Shown here: positions 30,630-47,465 of the stretch, piece after piece
Layout: each line of letters starts with the position of its first letter
Numbering within the stretch: position 1 is the first letter of the stretch
Origin: Lysobacterales bacterium 63-13
GTDB taxonomy: Bacteria > Pseudomonadota > Gammaproteobacteria > Xanthomonadales > Rhodanobacteraceae
Assembly (NCBI GenBank): GCA_001899855.1
Contig: MKWR01000031.1
Span: 186,001-250,000 of the forward strand
Direction: 5' to 3'
DNA length: 64,000 bases
Made by a program: the position numbers and the translations under genes
Notes under the pieces: model-generated
The model's input: only the letters and a program-made list of their open reading frames with translations
What the model was told of the DNA's origin: nothing
Database searches by the model: none

Positions 30630-30992
30630 TCAGGCTTGCGGACCGGCGTAGCTGCAGCCGGATGTGCAGGTTTCGTGGATCACCACCCGAGCCAGCAGCG
30701 GCAGGCGTGGCTGCAGCGCGTTCCAGATCCACACGGCGAGGTTTTCGCTGGTCGGGTTTTCCAGTCCGGGCACGTCATTGAGATAGTGGTGATCGAGCTG
30801 GTCGAACAACGGCGCAAAGGCCGCTTTGACATCCGCGAAATCGCAGACCCAGCCCAGGGTCGGCTCGATTGCTCCGCGCAAGTGGATCTCGATCTCGAAC
30901 GAATGCCCGTGCAAGCGCGAGCACTTGTGCCCTTGCGGCACGCTGGGCAGGCGATGGGCCGCCTCGATGCGGAATTTCTTGAAGATTTCCAT
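30630..30992 (-). CDS. queD: 6-carboxy-5,6,7,8-tetrahydropterin synthase (QueD)
   Basis: A 120-residue T-fold enzyme. Zinc ligands are His13 in EAAHRLP and His28/His30 in LHGHSFE. The catalytic Cys is Cys24 in KCSRLHGH, and the C-terminal acid lies in [10 protein letters not shown]. It converts dihydroneopterin triphosphate to 6-carboxytetrahydropterin in the queuosine/deazapurine pathway. No other queuosine genes are close by. The 297-base stretch between this gene and the next (30993-31289) holds two T-runs (31173 and 31208) but no recognised gene or terminator. Confidence 0.93.
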
Positions 30993-31289: not shown

Positions 31290-32411
31290 TCAGGTTCCGT
31301 CGAGAAAATGGCGCGCGATGGCGAGTGCCAGGCGGTAGGGTTCGGGATCGTTGCGGTTGCTCAGGATGATCACGCTCAAGCGGCGTTGCGGATAACGCAC
31401 GAAGACATTGCGGAAGCCGATGCTTTCGCCCGAGTGCCACAGGGATTCGCCGGTGATGCGCCAACCGAAGCCGTAGCGGACATCGGCATCGTCGGTGACT
31501 GTCCAGGGATGAAAGGCAAGTTCGCGTGATTGCCTCGAGAGCAGGCGATCGCTGTAGAGCGCGGCATCCCAACGGGCCAGATCGTCGATCGAAGAATAGA
31601 TGCCGCCATCGCCGAGCACCGCGCTGGTCAGGCTTTGGTCGGTGCGCGTCCAGCCGCTTGCATTCTCGCTGTAGCCATAGGCGCGGTGGCTGACTGCCGG
31701 GCCGCCGTTGACATAGGCCAAGGTGTCGCGCATGCCAAGCGGTTCGAAGATGCGTTGCTTGAGGAATTCCTCGAAGCGCAGCCCCGATGCCTTTTCGACA
31801 ATCAGGGCGAGCATCGCATAGCCGCCATTGCTGTAACGATAGTGGCTGCCGGGTGCGAAGTAGAGGCGATCCTGCGCCTCCAGCAGATGCAGCACGTCGA
31901 CATCGCGCAGCTGGGTTGCCAGGCTTTCCGGCATCACATCCTCGTAGTCGATGAGGCCGCCGGTATGGGTCAGCAGCTGACGAATGGTGATGGCATCGGT
32001 CGCCGCGGGCAGCGAGGGCAGCCATTGGCGCACGCGCTGATCGAGGTCGAGGCGACCGTCCTCGGCGAGCAGCAGGATTGCCGTGGCGGTGAACTGCTTG
32101 CTGATCGAAGCCAGTCGATAATTCGTCGCCGGCATGGCCATTTGGTGGTCTTCGAGATTGGCCATCCCGTAGCCCTTGCGCACGACGGCCTTGCCATCGC
32201 GAATGACCAGCACCGAGGCACCCGGAACGTCACCCTGGTAAGCCTGCATGATCGTGTCGATCTCGGTGGTGTCGTTCATGATTCCTGCGCCGCTTGTGCA
32301 TCCACCCAGTGCGGCTGCAAGCCCGAGCAGCAGGGCGAATCGCACCAAGCCAGTACGCTGGTACAGGCTGCGCCGGCGTCGCGGTTCAGGCTCATTCGAT
32401 GGGCACGTCAT
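31290..32411 (-). CDS. serine hydrolase of the class C beta-lactamase family, lipoprotein
   Basis: A 373-residue protein. ATG 32411 (MTCPSNEPEPRRRRSLYQ) gives a signal with lipobox LGGC near residues 31-34, so it is probably a lipoprotein. The beta-lactamase/DD-peptidase fold shows SISK (SxxK nucleophile), YSN (YxN) and HSGE (in place of the KTG triad). Such proteins include D-Ala-D-Ala carboxypeptidases, D-aminopeptidases and esterases. It starts 20 bases inside the end of the VanX-type gene. In this setting a murein-peptide substrate is likely; antibiotic resistance is not indicated. Confidence 0.83.
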   Translation of the reverse strand: MTCPSNEPEPRRRRSLYQRTGLVRFALLLGLAAALGGCTSGAGIMNDTTEIDTIMQAYQGDVPGASVLVIRDGKAVVRKGYGMANLEDHQMAMPATNYRLASISKQFTATAILLLAEDGRLDLDQRVRQWLPSLPAATDAITIRQLLTHTGGLIDYEDVMPESLATQLRDVDVLHLLEAQDRLYFAPGSHYRYSNGGYAMLALIVEKASGLRFEEFLKQRIFEPLGMRDTLAYVNGGPAVSHRAYGYSENASGWTRTDQSLTSAVLGDGGIYSSIDDLARWDAALYSDRLLSRQSRELAFHPWTVTDDADVRYGFGWRITGESLWHSGESIGFRNVFVRYPQRRLSVIILSNRNDPEPYRLALAIARHFLDGT

Positions 32412-33117
32412 AAAGAATCTCGGCGGAAGGCTCGGGCTCGAAGCGGTAGTGCCACCACTCCATCGTGTAGTTCTGGAACCCTGCTGCGTGCATGGCCTCC
32501 CGAAGCCGATGCCGGTTGCCGCGTTGCGCCGCACTGATCTGCGCCGAGTCGGTATGCGCGCGCGGGTCGAAGAAATCGAAATCCGTGCCCATGTCGAGCG
32601 CTCGGCACGCTGTCGCCCGGCGATCGCATTGCTGCAGGGTGAGATCGACCGTGGCGCCGCGACTGTGCCCGGAAACCGGCGCAATGTAGTCGCCCAGCAG
32701 CTCGGACTTGTCGAGGTTGGGGTAGTAGCGCGACTTGCTCTTCTGTTCGCCGGCATCATTCGCCCAGCGGACGAAATGGCGTACGGCGCGCGCGGGGCGA
32801 TAGCAGTCGAAAATCTTCAGTCGCAACGAGTGCCTGCGGAGTTCGCGTTCAACGTCGGCCAGGGCGTGTGCCACCGGCGATTTGAGCAGGCAACGTGCGG
32901 CACTGTAGCCATCGATGGGTCGACCGACAAAATTGTCGGCACCGGCATAGCGCATGTCGAGGTTGATGTCCGGGACCAGCTCCCTGATGTCGACAAGGCC
33001 AGCTTCGCTTGCCGTGGTGGCGCTCGATAGCACGTTATCGGCGGCACCTGCGAGTGACACAAATTGCACGGCGATGTGGGCGCACAGGGCGAGCCACAGG
33101 GCGCGGCGATCAATCAC
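32392..33117 (-). CDS. ddpX: D-alanyl-D-alanine dipeptidase (VanX/DdpX type)
   Basis: A 241-residue exported protein (signal peptide to about Ala26). It belongs to the M15D zinc dipeptidases. Zinc ligands and catalytic residues are His151 and Asp158 in SGHSRGATVD, Glu220 and His223 in MEWWHY, and the Arg in CYRPAR (107). It cleaves D-Ala-D-Ala. The start is a GTG at 33117 that overlaps the upstream gene by 8 bases. Without vanH/vanA-type ligase genes this is a nutrient or recycling enzyme (as DdpX in E. coli), not glycopeptide resistance. Confidence 0.9.
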   Translation of the reverse strand: MIDRRALWLALCAHIAVQFVSLAGAADNVLSSATTASEAGLVDIRELVPDINLDMRYAGADNFVGRPIDGYSAARCLLKSPVAHALADVERELRRHSLRLKIFDCYRPARAVRHFVRWANDAGEQKSKSRYYPNLDKSELLGDYIAPVSGHSRGATVDLTLQQCDRRATACRALDMGTDFDFFDPRAHTDSAQISAAQRGNRHRLREAMHAAGFQNYTMEWWHYRFEPEPSAEILYDVPIE

Positions 33118-34660
33118 AATCGGCCACCCGCGCGAAGGCGAGATCCTCGTAATCGAAACTGAAATCCGCTTGCGGATCGACCTTGCTCATGTGCATCGTC
33201 GGCGCATCGCCGGTCGTGAAATCGAGCCAGGCCTCGGCATCGACGCCCTCGGCACCCCAGTCGACCAGGTTGCGCTGGCCGACCTGCATCAGCGTGCCGC
33301 GCATGAGCGGCGACTTGGCCGAGCGAAAACGCACCCGTTGTGCGTCGGCACAGATTGCCACGTCGCCAAACCACGGGTCGCGCCAGACGCCGAGCAGACC
33401 GTGCAATTGTGCGGGTGTCAATGACGTACGCGTGGCTGTGTCCGGTGCCGCATGCTGCGTGGTCGAGACGCGATCAGCGGCGAGATCGGCAGCGAAGTCG
33501 GCAATGCCGCGCGCATCATCCGGCGCGGTGAACTGCTTGACCAGGGCCTCGCCCAGTACAGTTCTGGCCTCGTCCGCTTCGCCGTTGATCAGGAAGACAA
33601 ACCCGGATTTGCGATCCGGCAACAACAGCATCATCGAGTACATGCCCGACAGCGTGCCGGTATGCGAGACCGTCCACTCGCCATCGACATCGCCGAGGCG
33701 GAAGCCGAGCGCATAGAGCCAGGCATGGGTGTTGTCCCAGACGCGTCGCCGCGCCGAAATCGGCATCGGCGTGTGGCCTGTCCACATTGCTGCGCGCTGT
33801 TCGGCGGACAACCAGGCTTTCTGTTGCGCATCCGGAGTCAACCAGGTGCGCGCCCAGCGCAACATGGCATCGAGACTGCAACGAATGCCCCCGGCGGCGG
33901 CCGAGGTGATCCCGGCAACCTCATCGCCATCGGCGGAGATGACGACATTGCGCCCCTTGGCGTGTCCGTGCGGTTGCGCGATGTCGTCCGTGACGGAAGA
34001 CTTCCATGCGCCAACGCGGCAATCGAGGCCAAGCGGCACGAACACCTGCGAACGCATCAATTCTTCGTAGCTTGCGCCGCCCGCAGCGGCAGCGACTTCG
34101 CCGGCGACCACATAGAGCAGGTTGTCGTAGGCATAGCCGGCGCGAAAACTGTACTTTGGCTTGATGTGGCCGAGGCCGGCAAGGATGTCGGCGCGGGTGA
34201 ACCGGTTGGGTTCCGGCCACAACATGAGGTCGCCGCCGCCTTCCGGCAGGCCGCTGTTGTGCACGAGCAGGTCGCGTACCTGCATGTTCCGCGTCACCCA
34301 GGGATCGAACATGCGGAAGGTCGGCAAGTGCTTTACCACCGGATCATCCCAGCGCAGCTTCCCGGCATCGACCAGGCGGGCGAGCAGGCTGGCGGTCATA
34401 GCTTTGCTGTTTGAGGCAATCTTGAACAGGGATTGGCGCGAGATCTTCTTGCCCGTGCCCGCTTCGCGTTCACCGAGCGTGCGCGTGTAGAGGACTTCGC
34501 CGTTGTCGACTACGCCCACCGCAATGCCCGGCAACTGGTAGCGCTGCACGGCATCGTCAACGATGCGGTCAAGGCGTTCCGGGCGTGGCGCAGCCAGTGT
34601 CCCGGTGGCCAGGAAGAACAGGGCGATGAGGACGATTCGATGCGTGCGCATGGCGTTCAT
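33110..34660 (-). CDS. exported serine hydrolase (beta-lactamase/DD-peptidase family) with C-terminal extension
   Basis: A 516-residue protein with signal peptide (MRTHRIVLIALFFLATGTLA). The catalytic domain (about 25-390) has SNSK (SxxK), YDN (YxN) in GYAYDNLLY and HTGTLSG as the third motif. A C-terminal domain of about 100 residues (from SLTPAQLHGLLGVWRDPWFG) resembles the DUF3471-like beta-barrel found in such hydrolases. The ATG at 34660 overlaps the lysA stop (ATGA); ATG 34651 is an alternative. It probably acts in the periplasm on D-amino-acid-containing peptides; the exact bond is unknown. Confidence 0.85.
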   Translation of the reverse strand: MNAMRTHRIVLIALFFLATGTLAAPRPERLDRIVDDAVQRYQLPGIAVGVVDNGEVLYTRTLGEREAGTGKKISRQSLFKIASNSKAMTASLLARLVDAGKLRWDDPVVKHLPTFRMFDPWVTRNMQVRDLLVHNSGLPEGGGDLMLWPEPNRFTRADILAGLGHIKPKYSFRAGYAYDNLLYVVAGEVAAAAGGASYEELMRSQVFVPLGLDCRVGAWKSSVTDDIAQPHGHAKGRNVVISADGDEVAGITSAAAGGIRCSLDAMLRWARTWLTPDAQQKAWLSAEQRAAMWTGHTPMPISARRRVWDNTHAWLYALGFRLGDVDGEWTVSHTGTLSGMYSMMLLLPDRKSGFVFLINGEADEARTVLGEALVKQFTAPDDARGIADFAADLAADRVSTTQHAAPDTATRTSLTPAQLHGLLGVWRDPWFGDVAICADAQRVRFRSAKSPLMRGTLMQVGQRNLVDWGAEGVDAEAWLDFTTGDAPTMHMSKVDPQADFSFDYEDLAFARVADCD

Positions 34661-35928
34661 TGCGCCTGCCAGTCGAGCGTCGTGGCTTCGCCAAGGCACA
34701 TTTCGGCATGGCTCTGGCGGCGGCGCGCAATGGCCCAGCGGCCCTGGTCGAGAAGCACCTCGGCGGCAAGTGGCCGCGAATTGTAGGTTGATGCCATTGA
34801 TGCGGCATATGCACCGGTCGTGCAGATCATCATCAATTCGCCGGTTCGACATTCGGGCAGGGTGCGGTCGCGAGCAAAGGTATCGGCGCTTTCGCAGACC
34901 GGGCCGACGATATCGTAGGTGACCTCGGCTCGGGGCTGCGGCGACACCGCGACGATGTCATGCCAGGCGTCGTAAAGGCTGGGTCGCGCAAGGTCGTTCA
35001 TGGCGGCATCGAGGACGAGGAAGTGGCGCGAATCCGCTTGCTTTCTGCGCAGCACCCGGGTCAGCAGGATGCCCGCTTCGGCCACCAGCCAGCGGCCCGG
35101 CTCAAGCACAATGCGACCATGGTAATCATGCAAGGCATGGCGGATCGCAGCGACGTATTCGGCCGCTGTCGGTGCCGCATCGTCGCGGTCGCGATAGCGG
35201 ACGCCGAGTCCGCCGCCGACATCGATCGAATGAATCACGTGGCCTGCGGCTTCGAGCTCGCGGCGCAGCGCGGCAACCCGTTCCAGCGCATCACGGAAGG
35301 GTCCAAGACCGAGGATCTGGGAGCCGATATGCACATGCAGGCCGTTGATGCGCAGGTTTTTCAAGTGCGGGCGATCGGCAAACCATTGCCGGGCCTGATC
35401 GACGTTGACGCCGAATTTGTTTGCGGCTTTTCCCGTCGAGATCTTTGCATGTGTTTGCGCATCGACATCGGGGTTGATGCGCACGGCGACATTGGCGATT
35501 TGATCGAGTTCGGCCGCGACTTGCTGCAGGGAATCGAGTTCGTCGCGCGATTCCACATTGAAGCGCGCGATGCCGGCTGCGAGTGCCATGCGCATCTCGT
35601 CGATGCTCTTGCCGACGCCGGAGAAGACGATGCGTTGCGGATCGATGCCGGCATCGAGCGCGCGCTGCAGTTCACCCGCCGAGACAATATCCGCACCGAT
35701 TCCCGCGGCCGCCATCAAGCGCAGGACGGCACGCAACGGGTTCGCCTTCACGGCAAAACAGATCTGCGCGTCGAGGCCGCCGAGGGCGCGCTGCAGCTCG
35801 TGGATGCGCTGGCGGATCGCGCTGGCCGAGTAGACGTGGCATGGCGTGCCGACGCGACGGGCCAGCCATTCCAGGTCGATGCCATCCACCGTTGCGTTAC
35901 GGGATTCCGCGAGCGTGCGGCCTTCCAT
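34657..35928 (-). CDS. lysA: diaminopimelate decarboxylase
   Basis: A 423-residue fold-III PLP enzyme. The PLP lysine lies in CFAVKANP (about Lys61). The glycine-rich phosphate loop is DVGGGLGV, and the second-subunit Cys/substrate motif is GPVCESADTF. It decarboxylates meso-diaminopimelate to L-lysine in the cytoplasm. ATG 35928 is taken as start; a TTG at 35940 would add four residues. Its stop overlaps the next gene (ATGA). Lying in a row of murein-peptide genes, it could use DAP released from imported peptides as well as newly made DAP. Confidence 0.95.
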   Translation of the reverse strand: MEGRTLAESRNATVDGIDLEWLARRVGTPCHVYSASAIRQRIHELQRALGGLDAQICFAVKANPLRAVLRLMAAAGIGADIVSAGELQRALDAGIDPQRIVFSGVGKSIDEMRMALAAGIARFNVESRDELDSLQQVAAELDQIANVAVRINPDVDAQTHAKISTGKAANKFGVNVDQARQWFADRPHLKNLRINGLHVHIGSQILGLGPFRDALERVAALRRELEAAGHVIHSIDVGGGLGVRYRDRDDAAPTAAEYVAAIRHALHDYHGRIVLEPGRWLVAEAGILLTRVLRRKQADSRHFLVLDAAMNDLARPSLYDAWHDIVAVSPQPRAEVTYDIVGPVCESADTFARDRTLPECRTGELMMICTTGAYAASMASTYNSRPLAAEVLLDQGRWAIARRRQSHAEMCLGEATTLDWQAQ

Positions 35929-35998
35929 CAGCAGATCCAAGTTGTCGGTGCGCTGGTTGGCGAAGCGACCCGCGTGAACGGATCGCTTCGCCGTGCCT

Positions 35999-38986
35999 TC
36001 AGAAATTTACCGAGACGGTCAACTGGGCGTAGCGCGGCGACTGGTAGCCGGTACCCTGGCGATAGCTTGGGTTGAGGAAGCCGATATCGGTTTCCCGCTC
36101 GTCATCCACTTCGGTGACGCGTTCCTGGTTGAGCAGGTTGTACACCGCCAGTTTCACGCGCATGTCGGCGGACCCGAACGAGTGGAAGTAGCTGACGTTG
36201 GCACCGAAATCATAGGTCCACGGCAGACGGCCACCGGCGCCGCGAAGACTCGCTTCATAAATCCGTTCCGAAGGAGTATCGGATGTGCAATTCGCTACGC
36301 AAATGAAGTTGCTGTGGTAGTTGGTGCCGTCGAAGGGATTGCCGACGCCGAACGCATTGACCGGTCGACCCGACTGCACAACCAGCGTTCCACCGACCGC
36401 CCAGTTCTCGTTGAACCCGTAGGCGCCGCGAAACTTGAACTGATGGCGCCGGTCATTCGGCAGGTATCCGGTGCCGCCGTAATTGACCCATGGATCGTCG
36501 AAGTTCTCGGTGCGGCCGGTGTCTGAGAAATCGGTATCCGAGTTGACCGGGCCTTCGGCATTGCCCTTGCTGTAGGAAAGCGTGTAGGAGGCATTGAAGG
36601 ACCAATGCTCGTCCCAGGCGCGATCGATCTGCAGCTCGAGTGCCTTGTAGGTGCGTTCCGGCCTGGAGTAGCCGGTATCGCCGACATAGTTGCCATCATC
36701 GTCGTACAAGGCCCATCCGGCGACTGCCGTATCGATGGTGACGTAGGCATCATTCTCGCCGTCACAGTTGGTGTCGGTGTACACCGTGGCATCCTGGCCG
36801 GGGTTGCCCATGATGTAACCGATGTAACCCGGCTCGCCGTCGCAGAGGATGCCGTTGGAGGTCAGTTCCATGTCGTCGATGGCATTGGTCAGGTCGCGAA
36901 AGATGCCGCGCATGCCGATCGACCATTTGTCGTCGATCATGGACTGGAAGCCGAGGATCAACTCATCCTGGTAGACCGGATCCATGTTCTTGTCGACTTC
37001 GCCACGCAGATCGCCGACCGTGCCATCACCCTGTGAATCATCCACTGGCCCGATCTGCGCGCCGAGGATCGGGCGCTGATAGGTGCTGCCGTTGAACTCG
37101 AAGTCCTCGAGTCCGTTGAACGCATAGAACGTGCGCACGTCGGCAAAGCCACCGGCCTGCTTGATGTTGATGACATTCGCCACCGGCAGGAAGTAGCGCC
37201 CGAGCGTGCCGAAGATCTTGGTCCGCCCGTCGCCAACCGTATCCCAGGTGAAGCCGAGGCGGGGCGCGAGCATGTCGCTGATCTTGATGTAGCTGTCGCC
37301 GTCGGAGTTCTTGTTGTCGAACGCCTCCATGCGCAGGCCGGCATTGAGCACGAAGTTGGGCGTGACCGACCAGCTGTCTTCGAGGTAGTAGGCGCTGTTG
37401 ATTGTCTCGAAGGTGCCATCGACTTCGTTGGTGCGCGTGCGCACATAGGCAGTGACGCCCTCGGGAACAACGCCGCCGTTGGCCAGCGTGGCACCCGGGC
37501 TGGTGCTGCGGATTTCATAGAGCAGGCGATCGGGGCCCGGATAGAACTGCGTGTGATCCGAAGTATTGGTCTCATGATCGAGGCCAAAGCGCAGCAGGTG
37601 ATCGCCGAGCGACCATTCGAAATCCAGGCGCGCCGCCTCGCGATTGTCCAGGCGCCGGGCGACGGTCGAGGTGCTGGTGCAGCCGATATCGCCCTCACCG
37701 ACCGGTCTCAGGTCACGAATGCGGCTGCAGTTGATGTCGTTGAGGCTCGATTGCGCGAACTCGCGTTCGTTTTCGCCGTACATGGCCTTCATCGAGAAAT
37801 CATCGGTCAGGTATCCCGTGTAGGTCGCCGACCAGTTGCTGCCGCCATTGTCGAGGTAACGGGTGTTGTTGAAATCGTTGCGCTGGCCGTTGGCCAGATC
37901 GAACTGGTAGATGTCGGTGGCGGTGTTGTTGCCATCGCCGAAAGCGAGAAACTCGAGCAGGTGGTTGTCGCTGATCTGCCAATCCAGCTTGGTTCCCCAG
38001 AAGCCGTCGTCGGACTTGCCCTTGTTGATGAGGTTGCCGGACGTGGTCGTGTTGGTTGGCCGGTAGTCGCGCGCCTCGTACAGGGCGAAGAAGAACAGCT
38101 TGTCGCGGATGATCGGTCCGGAGGCATACACATTCACGTTGTGGCGATCGTATTCGTCGTAGCTGGAAATGTAGGTGGGATTGCCGTCGGCATCGTAATG
38201 GTCGTTGCCGCTGGTCTGTGCAAAACTCGGCTCCCATACGGCCTCGGCACCGAATTTGAACTCGTTGGTGCCCGATTGCGTCACCGCATTGATCACGCCA
38301 CCCGTGGTGCGGCCGAATTCAACCGAGTAGCCGCCCGTCTTGACCTGGAACTCCTTGTAGAACGCAAACGGCACCGACGAGAAACCGACACGGTTGTAGA
38401 AATCCGTGACATTGAGGCCATTGATGTAAACCGTGTTTTCCGCCACCGACGAACCGCCAAACGAGATGCCGCCAAATTCGCCTTGCACCACGCCCGGCGC
38501 AAGCAGGGCAACCGCCAGCGGATCGCGCTCGACCGGCAGGCGCTTGAGCTCCTCGCGATCGATATTGGTCGCGCTTTCAACCGAGGTGACATCAACTGCC
38601 ATGGGCAGGGCCGAGGCACTGACGACGATGGTGTCGAGCGTGCCGGTTGCTGTTCCCACGTTGACGGTGGTCGCGTTGCCCAGGCTTACCGTCACGTTCA
38701 ACGGTTCTGCCAGCGACTGGCCATCCACCGTTGATTGCAGCTGGTAATTGCCGACCGGAAGGAACGGGAACCGGTAGTTTCCATTGGCATCGGCGGTTAC
38801 CGTGCGCGAGAAGCCGGTGTCCGGGCTGGTCACGGTGATGACCGCTCCCGGGCGCGTGCGACCGACCAGCGAGCCGTCGGAATTTGCGGCCGACACCGCC
38901 GTCGGTGCGAGCATCGACAGGCAGGCACCCAAGGCCAGGCAAAGTGCCCGTTGTGCCATTGTTCTTTTGCCAATCACCTTGTTCAT
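35999..38986 (-). CDS. TonB-dependent outer-membrane receptor, Oar-like
   Basis: A 995-residue protein. Signal peptide to about Ala34. An N-terminal carboxypeptidase-regulatory-like domain (about 38-110; GSLVGRTRPGAVITVTSP, FPFLPVGNYQL) marks the Oar type. The plug domain (about 125-240) has VYINGLNVTDFYNRVG and GRTTGGVINAVTQSGTNEF. The beta-barrel ends in SVNF with the C-terminal aromatic typical of outer-membrane proteins. Strong ribosome binding site GGAGGGG. It lies 47 bases after the transglutaminase-like gene and 70 before lysA, so it is probably in their operon. The ligand is unknown; peptides are likely from context. Confidence 0.9.
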   Translation of the reverse strand: MNKVIGKRTMAQRALCLALGACLSMLAPTAVSAANSDGSLVGRTRPGAVITVTSPDTGFSRTVTADANGNYRFPFLPVGNYQLQSTVDGQSLAEPLNVTVSLGNATTVNVGTATGTLDTIVVSASALPMAVDVTSVESATNIDREELKRLPVERDPLAVALLAPGVVQGEFGGISFGGSSVAENTVYINGLNVTDFYNRVGFSSVPFAFYKEFQVKTGGYSVEFGRTTGGVINAVTQSGTNEFKFGAEAVWEPSFAQTSGNDHYDADGNPTYISSYDEYDRHNVNVYASGPIIRDKLFFFALYEARDYRPTNTTTSGNLINKGKSDDGFWGTKLDWQISDNHLLEFLAFGDGNNTATDIYQFDLANGQRNDFNNTRYLDNGGSNWSATYTGYLTDDFSMKAMYGENEREFAQSSLNDINCSRIRDLRPVGEGDIGCTSTSTVARRLDNREAARLDFEWSLGDHLLRFGLDHETNTSDHTQFYPGPDRLLYEIRSTSPGATLANGGVVPEGVTAYVRTRTNEVDGTFETINSAYYLEDSWSVTPNFVLNAGLRMEAFDNKNSDGDSYIKISDMLAPRLGFTWDTVGDGRTKIFGTLGRYFLPVANVINIKQAGGFADVRTFYAFNGLEDFEFNGSTYQRPILGAQIGPVDDSQGDGTVGDLRGEVDKNMDPVYQDELILGFQSMIDDKWSIGMRGIFRDLTNAIDDMELTSNGILCDGEPGYIGYIMGNPGQDATVYTDTNCDGENDAYVTIDTAVAGWALYDDDGNYVGDTGYSRPERTYKALELQIDRAWDEHWSFNASYTLSYSKGNAEGPVNSDTDFSDTGRTENFDDPWVNYGGTGYLPNDRRHQFKFRGAYGFNENWAVGGTLVVQSGRPVNAFGVGNPFDGTNYHSNFICVANCTSDTPSERIYEASLRGAGGRLPWTYDFGANVSYFHSFGSADMRVKLAVYNLLNQERVTEVDDERETDIGFLNPSYRQGTGYQSPRYAQLTVSVNF

Positions 38987-39033
38987 TTCCCCTCCAGGTC
39001 ATGGTTGCCGCATGTATCCGCGGTTGATTTGAA

Positions 39034-40524: not shown

Positions 40525-40669
40525 CGTCTCGGAGTTCCACCTGAAAGCATCTGTGGCGGCTGTGTAACACGGTTGCAATCGGTGGTCAATAATTTATGCT
40601 TCGCAACAGATTTCCGGGAATCATCTATTCCGTAATGCACCATTCAGCGCATGACAAGGCGGGGTCTCC
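40525..40669. promoter_or_regulatory. divergent intergenic region of the murein-peptide locus
   Basis: 145 bases separate the two divergent arms. It is the most AT-rich stretch nearby (GGTCAATAATTTATGCTTCG near 40582). On the minus strand TTGACC and TACACA are 17 bases apart (about 40589-40561); the second box is weak. It is the most likely place for an operator of the RpiR regulator encoded in the + arm, but no clear inverted repeat was recognised. Confidence 0.5.
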
Positions 40670-41821
40670 ATGATCCAGACGGTATGGCCATACCTTGCCG
40701 TGATGCTCCTGTGTGCGGGCATTTTTCCTGCGCTGGAGCGCCGCTTCGACTGGCGCTTTTTCAAGGTGATGCCGCCGATCGTGTTGACCTACCTGCTGGT
40801 CACCGCCCTCGCCGTCGGCGGACTGTGGCAAGTCAACGAGGCGATCCGCGGCGCACAGTCGAGCCTGATTGGGCGACTGGTCCCCGCCCTGCTGTTTCTG
40901 CTGATGATCAATTGCGACCTGCGCGCGATCTACCGGCTCGGGGCGCGCGTGCTCGCCGTATTCTTCTGCACATCATTATGTTTGTTTATTGCTTTCGTGG
41001 TCACGTTCCTGCTCTATCGCGGCTGGTTGGCGGGCGATGCCTGGCAACCACTGGCCGCACTAAGTGGCAGCTGGGTCGGCGGCTCGGCCAACATGATTGC
41101 CGTGAAGCAAGCCATCGGCATGTCCGATTCGCTGCTCGCCATGTCCTTGCTGACCGACGCGCTGGGCTATTCGATCTGGGTGGTCGTGCTGTTTGCAGTC
41201 GCGCCACTGGCACCCGCCTTCAACCGCTGGACGCGCGCGCGATCCAGCGCCGACATGGGCGTCGAGGAACTGCGCAGCAATGCACCGGCGACACCCGACA
41301 GCGTGCTGGTCTGGCTCGGCCTGGCCTTGCTGGTGGGCGCGGGCAGCGCGTCGTTGGCGTCGCTGTTGCCTGTGTCCAGCATGCTTTCGGCCACCACCTG
41401 GACCATTCTGCTTGCGACCGGATGCGGACTGATCGCCGCGCATACCCCGCTGGCACGCTATCCGGGCGCGAGTTCCATTTCCGGCGCGTTGCTGATCGGC
41501 GTGGTCGCGATACTCGCCTCGCAAAGCAATTTTGAAGGTATCGGCGAGGCACCGATGTACCTTTTGTGCGGGCTCACCGTCCTCGTCATCCACGCCGTTT
41601 TGCTGATCCTCGCGGCGCGCGTTTTCCATTTCGATCTTTATCTGTGCGGCATCGCCTCGCTGGCGCATGTCGGTGGCGTCGCCGCGACGCCACTGCTTGC
41701 GGCCAGCTACGCGCGTGCGCTGGTGCCGGTCGGAATCCTGCTTGCCCTGCTCGGATATATCCTCGGCACCGGCTTTGGTCTGCTGGTCGCCTCGATCCTG
41801 TCGGCGCTGGCACTTCCCTGA
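40670..41821 (+). CDS. DUF819 family membrane protein
   Basis: A 383-residue protein with ten to eleven membrane helices. It has the DUF819 (YjcL-like) signature LSGSWVGGSANMIAVKQAIG and AHVGGVAATPLLAASYAR, resembling the two re-entrant halves of sodium-coupled transporters. Function is not established. In other genomes the family often neighbours dipeptide epimerases, which suggests transport of a murein-derived compound; this is inference. It opens the + arm and is 13 bases before the NlpC/P60 gene. Confidence 0.85.
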   Translation: MIQTVWPYLAVMLLCAGIFPALERRFDWRFFKVMPPIVLTYLLVTALAVGGLWQVNEAIRGAQSSLIGRLVPALLFLLMINCDLRAIYRLGARVLAVFFCTSLCLFIAFVVTFLLYRGWLAGDAWQPLAALSGSWVGGSANMIAVKQAIGMSDSLLAMSLLTDALGYSIWVVVLFAVAPLAPAFNRWTRARSSADMGVEELRSNAPATPDSVLVWLGLALLVGAGSASLASLLPVSSMLSATTWTILLATGCGLIAAHTPLARYPGASSISGALLIGVVAILASQSNFEGIGEAPMYLLCGLTVLVIHAVLLILAARVFHFDLYLCGIASLAHVGGVAATPLLAASYARALVPVGILLALLGYILGTGFGLLVASILSALALP

Positions 41822-41834
41822 AGGCAACTCGATC

Positions 41835-43259
41835 ATGAACCTGTTTCGACTCCTGCTTGCCGCCCTTTTCGTGCTTGGTACGCCGACGTCGTTCGCGCGC
41901 GAAACGCCGACCCCGGCAGTCGAACTTGGTGGCGTCGGCGTCAGCGACGCGCAGCTTGGTGCCGACTACTGGATTGCGCGCCAGACTGCTGCCGATCAGG
42001 TGATCCTCGGTCGCAGTGGGATTCTGGCGCAGAACGCGCAACTCATGCGCGAGGATGCGTCGATGCACGACCTGCGCGGCTTGTCGTCGACGCTGGATCG
42101 CAAGCAGGTCGCGACCTGGATCGAAGGACTTGCCGACGCGCCACAGTCGCCGCTCTACGACGTCGATGGAAAACCCGTCGCTGCAACCGTGCTCGAAGCC
42201 ATCCTCGCCAACCGGCAACTGGATGGCATACCCGCGTCGCAAGCGACGCGCTATGGTCTGGTCGTGCAGCGCGCCGACCTGCGCACCTTTCCGACCCACT
42301 TGCGGGTGTTCCGTTCGGCCGACGACACCGATATCGACCGTTTCCAGGAAAGCGGCGTGTTTCCCGGCACACCCGTCGTGATTGCGCACGTGAGCGCCGA
42401 TGGTCGCTGGTGGTTCGTGGTCAGCCCGAGCTACGCGGCATGGATCGAGGCCCGCTCCGTCGCCATCGGCACGGCCAAACAGGTGTTCGGCTATGTCGAT
42501 AAGTCACCTTACCGCATCGTCACCGGTGCCAGCGTGCACACGGTCTTCACGCGCGAGGCACCGGCACTCTCGGAACTGCAACTCGACATGGGTGTGCGCG
42601 TTCCGTTGTGGACGGACTGGCCCGCCGAAACGCCGGTAAACGGCCAGCACGCGTATACAGCCCATGTCATCGAACTGCCGACCCGCGGCACCGACGGCAG
42701 CCTCGGCTTCGCGCCGGCCTTGTTGCAGAAGAATGCGGACACGGCCGCCGACTATCTGCCGCTGACCCGCAGCAACATCCTGCGCCAGGCCTTCAAGTTC
42801 CTCGGCGAACGCTACGGCTGGGGCCATGCCTACAACGGGCGCGATTGCAGCGGCTTCGTCGCCGAGGTCTATCGCAGCATGGGCGTCATGATGCCGCGCA
42901 ACACCAGCGACCAGAGCGTGAGCCCGGCCTTCGCAAAACACATCTTCACGGAAGCCGACACGCCCGCGCAACGCAGCGAGGCCGCGCATGCGGCCGAGCT
43001 GGGCGACCTCGTCTATATCCCCGGGCATGTCATGTTGGTCATCGGCAGCATGAACGGTGATCCATGGGTCATCCACGACACCACCGGAGCCACCGTGCGC
43101 ACTGCGGATGGCCGCCGGGTACGCGTGAAACTGAATGCCGTTTCGGTGACGCCCTTGGTTCCGCTGCAATTCAACGACAGCGAATCCTATATCGATCGCA
43201 TGCGCAGCATCGTGCGCATCCGCCCCTTGCCAGCCACGGAAGCGCCAAACCATCCATGA
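41835..43259 (+). CDS. exported NlpC/P60 endopeptidase with SH3 domains (YkfC-like)
   Basis: A 474-residue protein, signal peptide to about Ala22. Order: NlpC/P60 N-terminal stabilising region (about 30-90; YWIARQTAADQVIL), two SH3-like domains (about 130-300) and the NlpC/P60 peptidase domain (about 310-450). The catalytic triad is visible as Cys338 in GRDCSGFVAEVY, His398 in PGHVMLV and His414 in VIHDTTG. Family members cut gamma-D-Glu-DAP bonds in murein peptides. Its stop overlaps the epimerase start (ATGA), as the product (L-Ala-D-Glu) is the epimerase substrate. Confidence 0.9.
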   Translation: MNLFRLLLAALFVLGTPTSFARETPTPAVELGGVGVSDAQLGADYWIARQTAADQVILGRSGILAQNAQLMREDASMHDLRGLSSTLDRKQVATWIEGLADAPQSPLYDVDGKPVAATVLEAILANRQLDGIPASQATRYGLVVQRADLRTFPTHLRVFRSADDTDIDRFQESGVFPGTPVVIAHVSADGRWWFVVSPSYAAWIEARSVAIGTAKQVFGYVDKSPYRIVTGASVHTVFTREAPALSELQLDMGVRVPLWTDWPAETPVNGQHAYTAHVIELPTRGTDGSLGFAPALLQKNADTAADYLPLTRSNILRQAFKFLGERYGWGHAYNGRDCSGFVAEVYRSMGVMMPRNTSDQSVSPAFAKHIFTEADTPAQRSEAAHAAELGDLVYIPGHVMLVIGSMNGDPWVIHDTTGATVRTADGRRVRVKLNAVSVTPLVPLQFNDSESYIDRMRSIVRIRPLPATEAPNHP

Positions 43260-44350
43260 AGATCACCGATATCCGCTTCGGCATGCTGCGCGTGCCCCTG
43301 AAGACGCCGTTCAAGACCGCATTGCGCACGGTCGAAGCGGTCGAAGACATCATCGTCATGATCAATACCGACAGCGGCCATGTCGGTTATGGCGAAGCGC
43401 CGGCAACGGCGGTGATCACCGGCGATACGCACGGCTCGATCATCGATGCGATCCGCCACTACATCTCGCCGCGTCTGCTCGGTGCCGAAATTGCGGATCT
43501 CAATCGCATCACCCATCTGATCCAGGGTTCGATGGAGAAGAATTCAAGCGCCAAGGCCGCCGTGGAGATTGCCGTCTACGATCTCTGGGGCCAGCTTTAC
43601 CAGGCACCGCTGTATCGCCTGCTCGGCGGCGGCGATCCGGTCATCACCACCGATATCACCATCAGTGTCGACTACATCGACAAGATGGTGGCCGACTCGC
43701 TGGCAGCGGTCGAGCGCGGTTTCGAGTCGCTCAAGATCAAGGTCGGCAAGGACATCGGTGTCGACATCGAGCGGGTCAAGGCCATCTACGCGGCGGTCGA
43801 GGATCGCGCCTTGCTGCGCCTCGATGCCAACCAGGGCTGGACGGCCAAGCAGGCCGTGTATGCGCTGCAGACGCTGGAAGACGCCGGCGTGCGCCTCGAA
43901 CTGGTCGAGCAACCAGTCAAGGCCAATGATCTGGACGGCATGAAATACGTCACCGAACGCGTGCACACGCCGATCATGGCGGATGAAAGCGTGTTCGGCC
44001 CGACCGAGGTGATCGAACTGATCCGCATGCGCGCCGCCGACATCATCAACATCAAGTTGATGAAAACCGGCGGCATTTCCAATGCCATCCGCATCGCCGA
44101 CATTGCCGCAATGTACGAGGTGGAATGCATGATTGGCTGCATGCTTGAAACCAGCATCAGCGTCGCCGCCGCCGTGCACGTGGCGGTCGCCAAATCCAGC
44201 GCGATCACCAAGATCGATCTCGACGGGCCCTCGCTGTGCGCCTTCAATCCGGTGGATGGCGGGGTCATCTTCAACGAATCCGAGATCACCATAACGGATG
44301 CGCCGGGGCTGGGAATCCGGGATATTCGCGGACTGGAATTGATCCCCTGA
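43256..44350 (+). CDS. dipeptide (L-Ala-D/L-Glu) epimerase
   Basis: A 364-residue enolase-superfamily enzyme (muconate-lactonising subgroup). The capping domain begins MKITDIRFGMLRVPLKTPFK. The barrel has Lys160/Lys162 in LKIKVGK and metal ligands Asp190 (LDANQGW), Glu218 (VEQPV) and Asp243 (ADESV). The second catalytic Lys is Lys267 in INIKLMKTGG. This spacing fits AE epimerases such as YkfB and YcjG, which turn L-Ala-D-Glu into L-Ala-L-Glu in the cytoplasm. ATGA overlap with the NlpC/P60 gene. Other dipeptides are possible because specificity varies in the family. Confidence 0.92.
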   Translation: MKITDIRFGMLRVPLKTPFKTALRTVEAVEDIIVMINTDSGHVGYGEAPATAVITGDTHGSIIDAIRHYISPRLLGAEIADLNRITHLIQGSMEKNSSAKAAVEIAVYDLWGQLYQAPLYRLLGGGDPVITTDITISVDYIDKMVADSLAAVERGFESLKIKVGKDIGVDIERVKAIYAAVEDRALLRLDANQGWTAKQAVYALQTLEDAGVRLELVEQPVKANDLDGMKYVTERVHTPIMADESVFGPTEVIELIRMRAADIINIKLMKTGGISNAIRIADIAAMYEVECMIGCMLETSISVAAAVHVAVAKSSAITKIDLDGPSLCAFNPVDGGVIFNESEITITDAPGLGIRDIRGLELIP

Positions 44351-44369
44351 GCGGAGCGAGTCGAGGCGA

Positions 44370-45227
44370 ATGTCACCGCTGCTGAAAATCCGCGCCGAAC
44401 GCGACCAGATGTCGGCGATCGAACGCCGCATTGCCGACTTCCTCCTGGAAGAGTCGCATCTGTTGCGCGACTACTCCTCGCAGCAGCTCGCCAATGCACT
44501 GAAGATCAGCCAGTCGAGCGTGGTCAAGTTCAGCCAGAAGCTCGGCTTCAAGGGCTATCCGGATCTCAAGTACTCGATTGGCGAAGCGGTCGCCCGTGGT
44601 GATGCCGCGGATGGCGGTGGCGCGCATGGCAATGGCGAACCGGTGGTCGACGACCCGCATGCGGCGCTGGCCGAAAATCTCTGGTACATCAAAACCCGCG
44701 CCGAACAGGAAACCCGCCTGATCAATCCGGCGAGTGGCATCGATGCGATTGCCAGACTGATCGGCAAGGCCGGCAAGGTCTTTCTCATCGGCCTTGGCGA
44801 AGACGGCATTCCGGCGCGCGCCTTCGCCATGCGCCTGTCCCTGCTCGACATCCTCACCGTGCATCATTTCGATGCGGTGCTGATGACGGCGAGCATCAGC
44901 ACGGCGACCAAGGCCGACGTGCTGATGATCTTCTCCGAGCACGGCCAGCAGACCAACCTGTGCAAGATCAGCCGGCAGTTCCGCGAGCGCCATGGCAACG
45001 TGATCTCAGTGACCCGGCACTCGGCCAACCCCTTGCGCGCGCACGCCGATCATTCACTGCTTGTCTCCGCGCACGACGACCGCGCGCATATCGTGCCGCT
45101 GATCTATCACTCGGCCCTGCGCCATCTGCTCGACATGATCTTCGTGCTGCTCTGCGAAGGTGGCAAGAACCGCCTCGACCAGCTGGAGTCGAATCTCGAG
45201 CGCATCCGCAGCTTGATGGAGCCATGA
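44370..45227 (+). CDS. RpiR/MurR-family transcriptional regulator
   Basis: A 285-residue DNA-binding protein. The N-terminal HTH_6 domain (about 1-78) has SSQQLANALKISQSSVVKFS. A Gly-rich linker follows, then a C-terminal SIS domain (about 120-260; GKVFLIGLGEDGIPARAFAM) which in this family binds phosphosugars. No sugar-phosphate enzyme is in the locus, so the ligand may be unusual. It starts 19 bases after the epimerase and likely controls this locus. MurR, a relative, controls MurNAc use in E. coli. Confidence 0.9.
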   Translation: MSPLLKIRAERDQMSAIERRIADFLLEESHLLRDYSSQQLANALKISQSSVVKFSQKLGFKGYPDLKYSIGEAVARGDAADGGGAHGNGEPVVDDPHAALAENLWYIKTRAEQETRLINPASGIDAIARLIGKAGKVFLIGLGEDGIPARAFAMRLSLLDILTVHHFDAVLMTASISTATKADVLMIFSEHGQQTNLCKISRQFRERHGNVISVTRHSANPLRAHADHSLLVSAHDDRAHIVPLIYHSALRHLLDMIFVLLCEGGKNRLDQLESNLERIRSLMEP

Positions 45228-45236
45228 GGGGCAGGG

Positions 45237-45292
45237 AATGGAGAGCGGGGAATTGGGTAACGGATAGCGGGAAGCGGGACCCATCGCTTCCC
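45237..45292. repeat. degenerate GGGAATN repeat and hairpin after the RpiR gene
   Basis: A run of GGGAATGGAGAGCGGGG AATTGGG-like units (45237-45258) is followed by an 8-base stem (GGGAAGCG 45269-45276 with CGCTTCCC 45285-45292). There is no T-run. It resembles a decayed copy of the atp-operon elements and may separate the + arm into two transcripts. Confidence 0.6.
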
Positions 45293-45361
45293 TCGGGTGG
45301 GCGATGCACTTTTCCAGGCGTCGGGGATAGTCATCTCGAAGCGGCGGCAAGAGGTTGAACG

Positions 45362-46153
45362 ATGATTGAGCGAGCGGGGTGCATGTTTCGCGGCGTCGGT
45401 TTTGCGATCGCCTGCGCGGCCAGTCTGTTTTCCCCCGCGATCCCTGCGGCGGATGCGGCCGACAGCCTGACCGGTGCGCAGCAAATGATTCTTGTCATCA
45501 CGCCGGATTGGGACAGCACGCAGGCAAGCTTGCGCCGGTTTGAACGACACGACGGGCAATGGCAGGCGGTTTCGCTGCCGCAGCCGGTGGTCATCGGCAA
45601 ATCCGGTGCTGCCTGGGGGCTTGGCCTGCATGCGCCGCAGCCCGGCCCGCAGAAACGCGAGGGCGATGGGCGTGCGCCGGCCGGGATTTTCTCGATTGGC
45701 CCGGCCTTTGGCTACGCGTCATCGGTAGCGACCAAACTCGACTACCAGCCAATGACGGCAGCGGACTACTGCATCGATGTCAGCGACTCGCCGCTGTACA
45801 ACCAGATCGTCGATGCCGGAAAAGTGGGCGCACAGGCGATCGCGGGTTCAACCGAGCCGATGCGCCGCGATTTGCACGCCGCTGGCGACCCGCGCTACAA
45901 GCTTGGCTTTGTCATCGCGCATAATGCGCAGCGCAAGCCTGGTGGCGGCAGTTGCATTTTTGCCCATTTGTGGAAAAGCGCGGATTCGGCCACTGCCGGA
46001 TGCACAGCGATGGCCGAGCCGATCATGCGCGAACTGCTGGACTGGATTGACCCGACGCGACAGCCGGCGTTTGTCCTGCTGCCGCGTGCCGAATACCAGC
46101 GCTTGCGCCAGACATGGAAGCTTCCTCGCCTTGACGACAATGCTCCGCGATGA
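45362..46153 (+). CDS. exported L,D-transpeptidase-like (YkuD) protein
   Basis: A 263-residue protein with signal peptide to about Ala32. The YkuD-like domain (about 45-220) has His202 in IFAHLW and the nucleophile Cys214 in TAGCTAM. The usual S-x-GC-x-R motif is changed (TAGCTAM, no Arg), so activity or specificity may differ from cross-linking enzymes. The ribosome binding site AAGAGG precedes ATG 45362. Within the locus it could be an L,D-carboxypeptidase or endopeptidase. Confidence 0.82.
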   Translation: MIERAGCMFRGVGFAIACAASLFSPAIPAADAADSLTGAQQMILVITPDWDSTQASLRRFERHDGQWQAVSLPQPVVIGKSGAAWGLGLHAPQPGPQKREGDGRAPAGIFSIGPAFGYASSVATKLDYQPMTAADYCIDVSDSPLYNQIVDAGKVGAQAIAGSTEPMRRDLHAAGDPRYKLGFVIAHNAQRKPGGGSCIFAHLWKSADSATAGCTAMAEPIMRELLDWIDPTRQPAFVLLPRAEYQRLRQTWKLPRLDDNAPR

Positions 46154-46202
46154 TGCTGGCACGCGCCGCCCACAAACCTGATCCCGAGCCGAGTTCCTGC
46201 CC

Positions 46203-47465
46203 ATGTCGATGACCACACGAATCCTGCTCGGCCTCGCCCTCGGTGCGATCCTTGGCCTCGGCCTTGCCTGGTTCGACCCGGCCCTGGCGAAGACCGCCGC
46301 GGCCATTGCGCAGCCGGTCGGTCGCCTCTGGCTGAATGCCTTGCAGATGACCGTGGTGCCTCTGGTGCTGGCCCTGGTCATCATTGGCGTGAGTGCCGCC
46401 AATGACGCTGCCGCATCCGGGCGCACGGCACGACGGGCGATGGTCGTCTTCGCCCTGCTGCTGGCGGCAGGTGCGATGTTCGCGGCAATTGCTGCACCGC
46501 TGCTGCTGTCCTTGCTGCCACGTGATCCGGTCCTCATCGAACATCTGCGCGCGGCCATTCCGGATGCCGGCACTACCACCAGCGCCGTCGGTCTCGGTGA
46601 CTGGTTCACGGCGATCATTCCGGCCAATGCCATAGCCGCCGCGGCGCAAAGCGCGATGTTGCCGCTGGTTGTCTTCGCCCTGTTCTTCGGCTTTGCCCTG
46701 ACCCGCATCGAGGCCATGCGCCGCGCGCGCATGGTCGAATTCTTCCAGACCATCGCCGACATCATGATCGTCATCGTGCACTGGGTGTTGTGGGCGGCAC
46801 CGCTGGGCGTGTTCGCCCTCGTCCTCGCCGTCTGCGCCACTGCCGGCGGCAGTGTGATCAGTGCGCTGGGCTGGTACATCGCCTTGCTGTGCAGCCTCTA
46901 CATCACCATCACCCTGCTGATGTATCCGCTTGCGGTGATTGCCGGTGGCGTGCGCCTGCGCCGGTTTGCGGCGGCCATCCTGCCGGCGCAGGTCGTTGCG
47001 GCGAGCACGCAATCCTCGCTCGCCTCGTTGCCGGCGATGATCGAAAGCGCGCGCGGGCGTCTCGATCATCCGCCCGCCGTGGCGGCCCTGGTATTGCCGA
47101 TGGCGGTGTCCCTGTTTCGCATCACCAGCCCGGTGCAATACATCGGTGCGGCCTCGTTCATTGCCTGGATCCATGGCATCGACGTTCCAGCCGCACAGAT
47201 TGCCGCCGCTGCGGCGCTGGCCGTGGTGATCAGTCTCGGCTCGGTGGGTTTGCCGGGCCAGGTCAGCTTCATGGCGACGACAATGCCGGTGACCTCGGCC
47301 ATGGGCTTGCCGCTGGATCCGCTGGGCCTGTTGCTCGCGGTCGACACCATCCCCGATGTCTTTGCCACGGTCGGCAATGTCAGCGCCGACCTGACCGCGA
47401 ACACCATTGTCGCGCGCCGCCACAGCGAGGATCCGTCCGTGGAAGGGGTTGCCGCGGACACCTGA
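46203..47465 (+). CDS. dicarboxylate/amino acid:cation symporter (DAACS family)
   Basis: A 420-residue inner-membrane protein with about eight helices and two hairpins. It shows the Ser-rich re-entrant motif ASTQSSLASLP and the Na+-site helix region in NVSADLTANTI. The family carries glutamate, aspartate, dicarboxylates, serine/alanine and sometimes dipeptide-like compounds. It starts 49 bases after the YkuD-type gene. Uptake of glutamate or alanine freed in the periplasm would fit. Confidence 0.9.
   Translation: MSMTTRILLGLALGAILGLGLAWFDPALAKTAAAIAQPVGRLWLNALQMTVVPLVLALVIIGVSAANDAAASGRTARRAMVVFALLLAAGAMFAAIAAPLLLSLLPRDPVLIEHLRAAIPDAGTTTSAVGLGDWFTAIIPANAIAAAAQSAMLPLVVFALFFGFALTRIEAMRRARMVEFFQTIADIMIVIVHWVLWAAPLGVFALVLAVCATAGGSVISALGWYIALLCSLYITITLLMYPLAVIAGGVRLRRFAAAILPAQVVAASTQSSLASLPAMIESARGRLDHPPAVAALVLPMAVSLFRITSPVQYIGAASFIAWIHGIDVPAAQIAAAAALAVVISLGSVGLPGQVSFMATTMPVTSAMGLPLDPLGLLLAVDTIPDVFATVGNVSADLTANTIVARRHSEDPSVEGVAADT

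Follow-up and report, generated by a model that had tools for sequence, protein, structure and literature searches.

This analysis concerns the window, a 64,000-nucleotide stretch of Lysobacterales bacterium 63-13 (contig MKWR01000031.1, positions 186,001 to 250,000), and within it a set of 12 genes in two divergent arms at window positions 31290-47465. An initial annotation had read these genes as a complete system for the capture and catabolism of murein peptides. The open reading frame listing and searches against Pfam and NCBIfam bore out the divergent 12-gene set and all the families that had been named. Outward from the shared promoter region, the minus arm encodes a transglutaminase-like (TGase-like) protein, a TonB receptor, LysA, the SxxK hydrolase SER1, a VanX-like dipeptidase and a second SxxK hydrolase, SER2. 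The plus arm encodes, in the same direction of reading, a DUF819 protein, an NlpC/P60 enzyme, a dipeptide epimerase, an RpiR regulator, a YkuD-type protein and an SDF symporter. In window coordinates, the features are:

31290..32360, minus strand: SER2, SxxK hydrolase, probable lipoprotein (LGGC; PF00144, lipobox); start codon uncertain (alternative 32279)
32392..33117, minus strand: VanX-like M15 D-Ala-D-Ala dipeptidase with an N-terminal signal-like segment (PF01427)
33110..34660, minus strand: SER1, predicted secreted SxxK hydrolase of class C beta-lactamase/DD-peptidase fold (PF00144)
34657..35940, minus strand: LysA, a second diaminopimelate (DAP) decarboxylase, meso-DAP to lysine (TIGR01048, 473.5 bits)
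35999..38986, minus strand: TonB-dependent receptor, predicted outer-membrane uptake (PF13620, PF07715, PF00593, PF25183)
39034..40524, minus strand: TGase-like predicted secreted cysteine hydrolase, first gene of the left arm (PF01841)
40561..40631, no strand: divergent promoter/operator region, conserved elements with promoter hexamers placed by eye
40670..41821, plus strand: DUF819 membrane transporter, candidate L-Ala-D-Glu importer (PF05684)
41835..43259, plus strand: NlpC/P60 enzyme, predicted secreted (SH3_6 and NLPC_P60)
43256..44350, plus strand: predicted cytoplasmic L-Ala-D/L-Glu epimerase (MR_MLE; best PDB match 1JPM)
44370..45227, plus strand: RpiR/MurR-type regulator with SIS domain (PF01418, HTH_6; PF01380, SIS)
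45362..46153, plus strand: YkuD-type predicted secreted protein, candidate LD-carboxypeptidase/transpeptidase at DAP-D-Ala (PF03734, marginal)
46203..47465, plus strand: SDF/SLC1-family symporter, candidate meso-DAP importer (PF00375)

Three gene pairs overlap, LysA/SER1 by 4, SER1/VanX by 8 and NlpC/epimerase by 4 bases, and the remaining gaps are of 13-134 bases, which suggests that each arm would be co-transcribed as one unit. Signal peptides were scored by a crude hydropathy rule on start codons chosen by script. For each predicted-secreted protein, 59-75% of the orthologues passed this rule (VanX 35/59, SER1 44/73, SER2 21/30, NlpC 101/135, the TGase-like protein 73/107, YkuD 82/116 and the receptor 79/111), while the predicted cytoplasmic proteins rarely did so (RpiR 0/114, LysA 2/74, epimerase 9/138).

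Conservation of the gene neighbourhood

Comparison of the neighbourhood across relatives found it to be conserved, with one high-identity exception that is weighed below. Gene counts per locus were taken from tblastn tables for two sets of loci. The first comprised the best 80 of 340 epimerase relatives and is therefore biased to near kin. In addition, 60 further regions were hand-picked to span epimerase identities from 93% to 29%, 12 of which repeat loci of the first set. The second set comprised the unique loci of at least 19 kb, 109 out of 128, with matches accepted at E values up to 1e-10. The nearest named records by epimerase were an unclassified Lysobacteraceae metagenome-assembled genome, a Pseudomonadota metagenome-assembled genome and Dokdonella (92-93%).

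Among the best 80 of the 340 relatives, RpiR was found on the expected strand in 80, NlpC in 79, the TGase-like gene in 78, YkuD in 73, the TonB receptor in 72, SDF in 67, DUF819 in 60 and LysA in 55. SER2 counts in this set were left unused, as they included cross-matches to other SxxK hydrolases. The genes that flank the locus in the window, encoding a DUF937 protein and arginase, were each found in 0/80 of these relatives and in 0/109 of the unique loci. Flanking genes in none of the 80, against locus genes in 55-80 of them, indicate that the grouping did not arise by chance. Two small minus-strand genes (window 30071-30463 and 30630-30992) were called downstream of SER2 by a codon-usage script.

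The 109 unique loci gave a comparable picture, with NlpC in 107, YkuD in 93, RpiR in 91, the TonB receptor in 88 (some at a mere 25-29% identity), the TGase-like gene in 86, SDF in 73, DUF819 in 65 and LysA in 57. VanX was found in 44, a count limited by short upstream flanks. In the 20 regions for which 14 kb upstream was fetched, picked among the highest-scoring places, the outermost genes of the left arm were largely retained (VanX 19/20, SER1 19/20, SER2 17/20 with one inverted). More distant members (L137-L140 and L142, epimerase identity 65% down to 45%) had a compact arrangement of VanX facing NlpC-epimerase-YkuD, and 3/5 of them had a carrier. NlpC/P60 and the epimerase, mostly with YkuD and VanX, thus recur across the order and partly in other Gammaproteobacteria. 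An epimerase match of some kind was present in 143/250 genomes sampled from the order, and of 398 sampled genomes of the phylum, 15 had a match to the NlpC profile at E values up to 1e-20.

Several relatives have added genes, which were identified by Pfam on hand-picked neighbours. Across the 109 loci, an M19 membrane dipeptidase was present in 53, Amidase_2 in 18 and an S66 protein in 5. M19 lies between LysA and SER1 in L088 and L089 and beside NlpC in L138, Amidase_2 is found in L114 and L126, an S66 LD-carboxypeptidase follows the epimerase in L126, and L126 and L127 have SSF or APC carriers. Seemingly unrelated neighbours were also present, for example an NAD synthase adjoining L137. Of the loci outside the order, L167 carries the run DUF819-NlpC-epimerase-YkuD and, after it, an SSF carrier, a BadFG-type kinase, a GKRP/SIS protein and NamZ, and it also has RpiR. 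In L169 the epimerase, NlpC and VanX occur along with a match to RpiR, and the locus further encodes NamZ, a kinase-SIS fusion and a class IV aminotransferase; in L170 the epimerase, NlpC and YkuD adjoin an S13 D-Ala-D-Ala carboxypeptidase. L169 also encodes two fusions, one of a transglutaminase core and YkuD in a single 708-residue frame and one of Amidase_2, PG_binding and a beta-lactamase-fold hydrolase in an 819-residue frame. The added murein genes and the two fusions support a role in murein-peptide use.

Further observations were made at these loci. The murein-sugar-type genes adjoin the NlpC-epimerase core at L167:12160-17948 and L169:12977-18679, the SIS protein being etherase-like, and the fusion frames lie at L169:2556-5015 and L169:6073-8199. 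In the compact locus L127, a protein with T6SS_VgrG3-like_C, PG_binding_1 and XVIPCD domains (L127:8543-9772, minus strand) lies between VanX and NlpC; it is a predicted antibacterial secretion effector, which would place genes for killing and eating side by side. At L171:11465-13233 (minus strand), two carboxyltransferase-domain proteins (CT_A_B and CT_C_D) adjoin VanX and NlpC; this locus lacks the epimerase, and we take the two proteins to resemble 5-oxoprolinase subunits.

Predicted enzymes, receptor and carriers

The catalytic residues that were checked were invariant among the aligned orthologues, apart from one VanX row with a gap. The epimerase aligned end to end with Bacillus subtilis YkfB (1JPM, 344.6 bits), and Arg26, Lys162/164, Asp192, Glu220, Asp245, Lys269 and Asp323/325 were present in 81/81 rows (numbering counts from 43250, two codons ahead of the ATG). 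In YkfB, Arg24 presumably binds the Glu side chain and the Asp-x-Asp motif the Ala amine, and the equivalents of both, along with the two catalytic Lys, are present in the locus epimerase. The dipeptide epimerase 3JVA has Gly at that Arg position. An apparent "1 TGA" in the epimerases of nine relatives was rejected as recoding, as those matches start from residue 1 or 2 of the query, just before the ATG. The epimerase of L144 (G160:C7:105558-106639) is broken at residue 176/177 into two frames, by a frameshift or a sequencing error.

The NlpC/P60 enzyme had been proposed to form a YkfC/YkfB-like pair with the epimerase, and of this proposal the YkfB half stood, on the 1JPM match and the residues. 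The best profile matches of the NlpC protein were DvLysin (3M1U, 126 bits, profile 122-425), PnpA (6SQX, 87 bits, 53-387) and 3H41 (36 bits), the similarity to the first two extending over N-terminal, SH3b and catalytic regions, and its far N-terminus aligned to 6SQX only. The catalytic Cys-His dyad and its third polar residue (Cys338, His398 and His414, the last placed by alignment to DvLysin) were found in 32/32 rows. An Asp at the position of BcYkfC Asp256 is given as a hallmark of YkfC (PMC2954226), a subfamily that requires a free N-terminal L-Ala. The position aligned to this Asp in 3H41 is occupied by Asn356 in 30/32 rows, with Asp only in L138 and L139, and membership of YkfC was rejected on this residue. 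Tyr200 in SH3b1 was invariant (32/32), and the alignment to 3H41, needed for comparison with BcYkfC Tyr118, stops short of SH3b1. The protein therefore appears DvLysin/PnpA-like, and cleavage of the gamma-D-Glu-meso-DAP bond is predicted. PnpA cuts this bond in tri-, tetra- and pentamuropeptides (PMC7860986). Given Asn in place of the YkfC Asp, the enzyme may manage without a free L-Ala end and could cut sugar-linked stems, in which case the amidase of 18/109 relatives' loci would release L-Ala-D-Glu. The two loci with the YkfC-type Asp, L138 and L139, have M19 and lack DUF819; this Asp is possibly a natural specificity switch.

Trimming of the D-Ala end would fall to four further proteins. 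The VanX-like dipeptidase matched PF01427 with 156 bits, and its SxHxxGxxxD residues Ser149, His151 and Asp158 were found in 20/20 rows and ExxH in 19/20; its scores lay under the NCBIfam VanX equivalog (189.5 of 320 bits) and the DdpX-type model PRK10178 (123 of 176). The Ser and Lys of the SNSK motif of SER1 (35/35) and of the SISK motif of SER2 (39/39) were invariant. YkuD matched PF03734 with 23.9 bits, barely above the cut-off of 23.4, and had His202 and Cys214 in 74/74 rows.

The receptor comprises CarboxypepD_reg, plug and barrel domains. It aligned over more than 500 residues in 100 loci at 44-82% identity and had one other, weak match in its own genome (32% over about 300 residues). 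From its sequence and setting, it is a candidate murein-peptide receptor. In the TGase-like protein, Cys363, His399 and Asp415 were invariant in 37 rows (numbering of window:39037-40521). Its structural model (predicted local distance difference test, pLDDT, 88.5) best matched the fold of the cysteine protease 3ISR (E 1e-13), followed by TgpA and TglA, and it also matched the pseudomurein endoisopeptidase PeiP (E 0.009). Near full-length orthologues were found in 4 of 369 sampled genomes of the class, all within the order and within ~3 kb of an epimerase; the other 34 matches in this sample were weak, and one more copy, outside the order, is the YkuD fusion of L169. As all near full-length copies lie in these loci and one copy is fused to YkuD, we argue for a step on murein peptides, and our guess is that the protein cuts the cross-link amide bond or the bond between N-acetylmuramic acid (MurNAc) and L-Ala.

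LysA exceeded the TIGR01048 equivalog cut-off of 297.9 bits and had Lys65 and Cys349-Glu350 in 56/56 rows. The assignment as LysA thus held, with the qualification that a second match above the cut-off lies in the same genome, in an 880-residue frame at C24 that is probably an aspartate kinase-LysA fusion. The locus LysA was therefore rejected as the sole DAP decarboxylase.

DUF819 proteins are members of the CPA/AT group (PMC8396727). The model of the locus protein (pLDDT 86.6) matched the citrate carrier CitS (E 1e-4 to 5e-4, TM score 0.60-0.67), and its match to the aspartate:alanine antiporter AspT was not significant. This fold would suit a dipeptide that resembles a dicarboxylate, as L-Ala-D-Glu does. 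The SDF protein matched PF00375 with 255.5 bits and belongs to the SLC1/DAACS fold family. The position of an Arg in the aspartate transporter 9BGZ is Ala388 in 67/67 rows, and in 67/67 the NMDGT motif is replaced; Asp385 and Asn392, which we take to correspond to backbone ligands in GltPh, are kept. The GltPh chains 5CFY (Ala) and 6BAU (Cys) likewise lack Arg at that position, and we believe these to be engineered mutants, GltPh Arg397 presumably binding the acidic side chain of the substrate. The change from Arg to Ala and the altered NMDGT motif make SDF unlikely to be an aspartate or glutamate carrier. Of the loci that carry both the TGase-like gene and LysA, 57/57 have SDF or an APC permease (in L110 the permease instead of SDF), compared to 18/29 of those that have the TGase-like gene and no LysA; Fisher's test of the SDF-LysA association gave p about 1e-7 with kinship ignored. 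As SDF lacks the Arg for acidic side chains and LysA was never found without a carrier, import of meso-DAP is the preferred, and likely, function of SDF.

The divergent promoter region and RpiR

The region between the two arms contains TGTGTAACA (40561-40569), TTGCAA (40573-40578), GTCAATAATTTATG (40585-40598) and the palindrome GGAAT-N5-ATTCC (40617-40631). By eye, promoters were placed as TTGACC-17-TACACA leftwards and TTGCAA-16-TATGCT rightwards. In 107/108 intergenic regions of relatives GTCAATAA was present, the set including one region of zero length. The exact palindrome occurred in 29 of the 108, and in 20 simple shuffles any such word reached a maximum of 4.

A 14-base core was counted over 132 loci including the window, with 12 counted twice and rows without a usable upstream stretch skipped. 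With at most 3 mismatches, it was found in 108/108 loci that have RpiR and the TGase-like gene, the class that supplied the pattern, and in 4/5 loci that have RpiR and lack the TGase-like gene; in the one exception, L058, the upstream stretch is just 243 bases long. At no more than 2 mismatches it was found in 0/19 loci without RpiR, three of which reach 3 mismatches. When one mismatch was tolerated, the core was found at a single site in the genome of the window and the reversed core, as control, at none. The RpiR protein has the HTH_6 and SIS domains, and it scored 80.5 of the 408 bits of the MurR equivalog. Together, these data point to GGTCAATAATTTATG with GGAAT-N5-ATTCC as a putative RpiR operator between overlapping promoters. 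Based on RpiR lying beside murein-sugar genes in L167 and L169, a MurNAc-6-phosphate-like effector would suit this regulator. In L126, L129, L130 and L134, in which RpiR was not found, the word AATAATTTATT occurs upstream of NlpC on the other strand.

Probable murein-peptide utilisation and its alternatives

We conclude that the locus is very probably a locally regulated divergon for the utilisation of murein peptides. This interpretation, which the initial annotation had reached, was upheld by the neighbourhoods, the genes and fusions of relatives, the YkfB match, and the divergent promoter with its operator-like element. In the proposed sequence of events, the TonB receptor would carry murein fragments across the outer membrane, and SER1, SER2, YkuD and VanX would trim and consume the D-Ala end in the periplasm. 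The DvLysin-type NlpC/P60 enzyme would cut gamma-D-Glu-DAP in free or sugar-linked stems. L-Ala-D-Glu would then enter through the DUF819 carrier, to be converted by the epimerase to L-Ala-L-Glu and split by ordinary dipeptidases, and DAP would enter through the SDF carrier for conversion to lysine by LysA. RpiR would act at one operator region between the two overlapping promoters. The word "complete" overstated the case, because the locus in the window lacks a MurNAc-L-Ala amidase and an L-Ala-L-Glu dipeptidase.

Several observations weigh against this interpretation. The receptor and both carriers were assigned putative substrates from context, fold and residues, and recognition by the NlpC enzyme may not depend on a free N-terminal L-Ala. 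The epimerase lies under both NCBIfam cut-offs for L-Ala-D/L-Glu epimerases (NF041118 254/500 and PRK15129 113/343 bits). A promoter scan yielded 3 sites where 4.0 were expected, and a terminator scan 11 where 13.7 were expected, no more than chance. The SDF-LysA association was not significant on independent pairs (median p 0.125-0.25, with no contrary pair) in a test of 69 loci and the window on a quick tree without a mixture model.

The distribution of the genes also has exceptions. L132 has an epimerase that is 67-68% identical and no other locus gene, and the low-identity epimerases (29-35%) of L143, L145 and L146 are without NlpC. Ten loci of another family (L122-L126, L129, L130, L134, L141 and L147, some on short contigs) have NlpC and the epimerase and lack both VanX and YkuD; 9/10 have an amidase instead. 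Seven loci with NlpC were found outside the order; among them L168 contains NlpC and YkuD alone, L171 has NlpC, YkuD and VanX and lacks the epimerase, and L172 and L173 have few locus genes. DUF819, SDF or both are missing in some relatives, where the entry of the peptide or of DAP must differ. No epimerase was found in the two other sampled genomes of the genus of the window, and the locus is accessory.

The strongest rival is that the locus recycles the cell's own murein turnover in the periplasm, the receptor importing other cargo or only retrieving peptides that the cell itself has lost. Peptides from the cell's own wall would serve these enzymes just as well, and L024, L036, L044, L051 and L081 keep the TGase-like gene and the enzymes without the receptor gene. 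Such peptides are processed in recycling by E. coli and Bacillus (PMC2954226, PMC3305447). We consider this alternative unlikely, however, as the usual recycling permease, AmpG, is encoded elsewhere in the genome, so that the cell has another murein route besides this locus; the receptor gene is kept in 72 of the best 80 loci and has a single weak counterpart in the genome; the locus is accessory, being absent from the two other sampled members of the genus; and NamZ and genes of sugar catabolism accompany two loci from outside the order.

General scavenging, without specificity for murein, of D-amino-acid or gamma-glutamyl dipeptides appears very improbable. Dipeptide epimerases do vary in specificity, 3JVA, with Gly in place of the Arg shared by YkfB and the locus epimerase, presumably acting on other substrates, and the M19 enzymes of relatives are broad dipeptidases. 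However, Arg26 and the two C-terminal Asp residues were invariant in 81/81 rows, and LysA and VanX here, with the amidase, LD-carboxypeptidase and NamZ of relatives, point to murein. A wall-modification or antibiotic-tolerance locus, in which VanX, YkuD and the beta-lactamase-like proteins remodel the stem peptide, is scarcely credible: the locus does contain VanX-like, YkuD and class C beta-lactamase folds, but the twelve genes include no VanA/VanH-type ligase or dehydrogenase, the SxxK hydrolases score far under the beta-lactamase cut-offs listed, the VanX N-terminus is signal-like, and the epimerase, LysA and carriers would have no role in such a scheme.

Utilisation of murein peptides, our preferred interpretation, has partial precedents. 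In B. subtilis ykfABCD/dpp, as in the locus, a gamma-D-Glu-DAP endopeptidase adjoins an L-Ala-D/L-Glu epimerase and a peptide importer (PMC3305447, PMC2954226), and the epimerase is the closest solved relative of the one studied here. The B. subtilis system has a cytoplasmic YkfC, an LdcA-like YkfA and an ATP-binding cassette importer, whereas the endopeptidase of the locus is of another type and predicted to be secreted, DUF819 and SDF import would replace the ATP-binding cassette system, and an outer-membrane receptor, VanX, YkuD, LysA and a local RpiR are additional. B. cereus ykfBC is similar in having a secreted endopeptidase and an internal epimerase, with dipeptide import proposed between them, but it is Gram-positive, lacks a receptor and has the YkfC type with Asp256 (PMC2954226). 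The closest solved relatives of the locus NlpC are the four-domain NlpC/P60 enzymes DvLysin and PnpA; PnpA differs in being secreted and acting on the murein of other bacteria, and the available text describes no epimerase locus for it (PMC7860986).

The initial annotation had also held that no such set was described as one system. For the exact set this stood, in that the matches listed from the open-access literature contained no description of it, weak evidence given that subscription papers lie mostly outside that literature. A predicted murein polysaccharide utilisation locus of a Urechidicola (Bacteroidota) symbiont is in print, however, with SusCD pairs, an L-Ala-D/L-Glu epimerase, a D-Ala-D-Ala carboxypeptidase, an amidase and transporters, and most of its genes were ascribed to murein metabolism (PMC10199937). 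It differs in being sugar-centred (AmpG, MurQ, glycosidases, DeoR), and the parts of that paper available report neither the NlpC/VanX/YkuD/LysA set nor an RpiR operator. Tannerella forsythia ampG-murTKQ is likewise a dedicated, regulated operon for environmental muropeptides; it is AmpG-based and sugar-centred, under the hybrid two-component regulator GppX, and no peptide-catabolic set is reported in the available text (PMC5388701). In a review of TonB transporters, a search of the available text for muropeptide and oligopeptide gave no match, and murein appeared solely in the reference list (PMC11658791).

The locus is very probably a form of murein-fragment utilisation that joins a receptor, secreted peptide-cutting enzymes, carriers, an epimerase, a DAP decarboxylase and a regulator at one operator-like element, an unusual combination. 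The order includes bacteriolytic soil bacteria and Xanthomonas. A more specific proposal, which we hold tentatively and rate below an even chance, is that a TonB murein-peptide receptor, an SLC1-fold carrier adapted to take up meso-DAP as a source of lysine, a DUF819 carrier of L-Ala-D-Glu and a TGase-like murein hydrolase form one operator-controlled system that feeds soil Lysobacterales on the wall peptides of other bacteria. If the overall interpretation is correct, the locus would be the peptide-side counterpart of the known murein-sugar scavenging operons. It would offer a candidate murein-peptide receptor and propose substrates for DUF819, for an SLC1 carrier without the usual Arg and for a secreted transglutaminase-like hydrolase, giving these uncharacterised transporters and enzymes a testable role.

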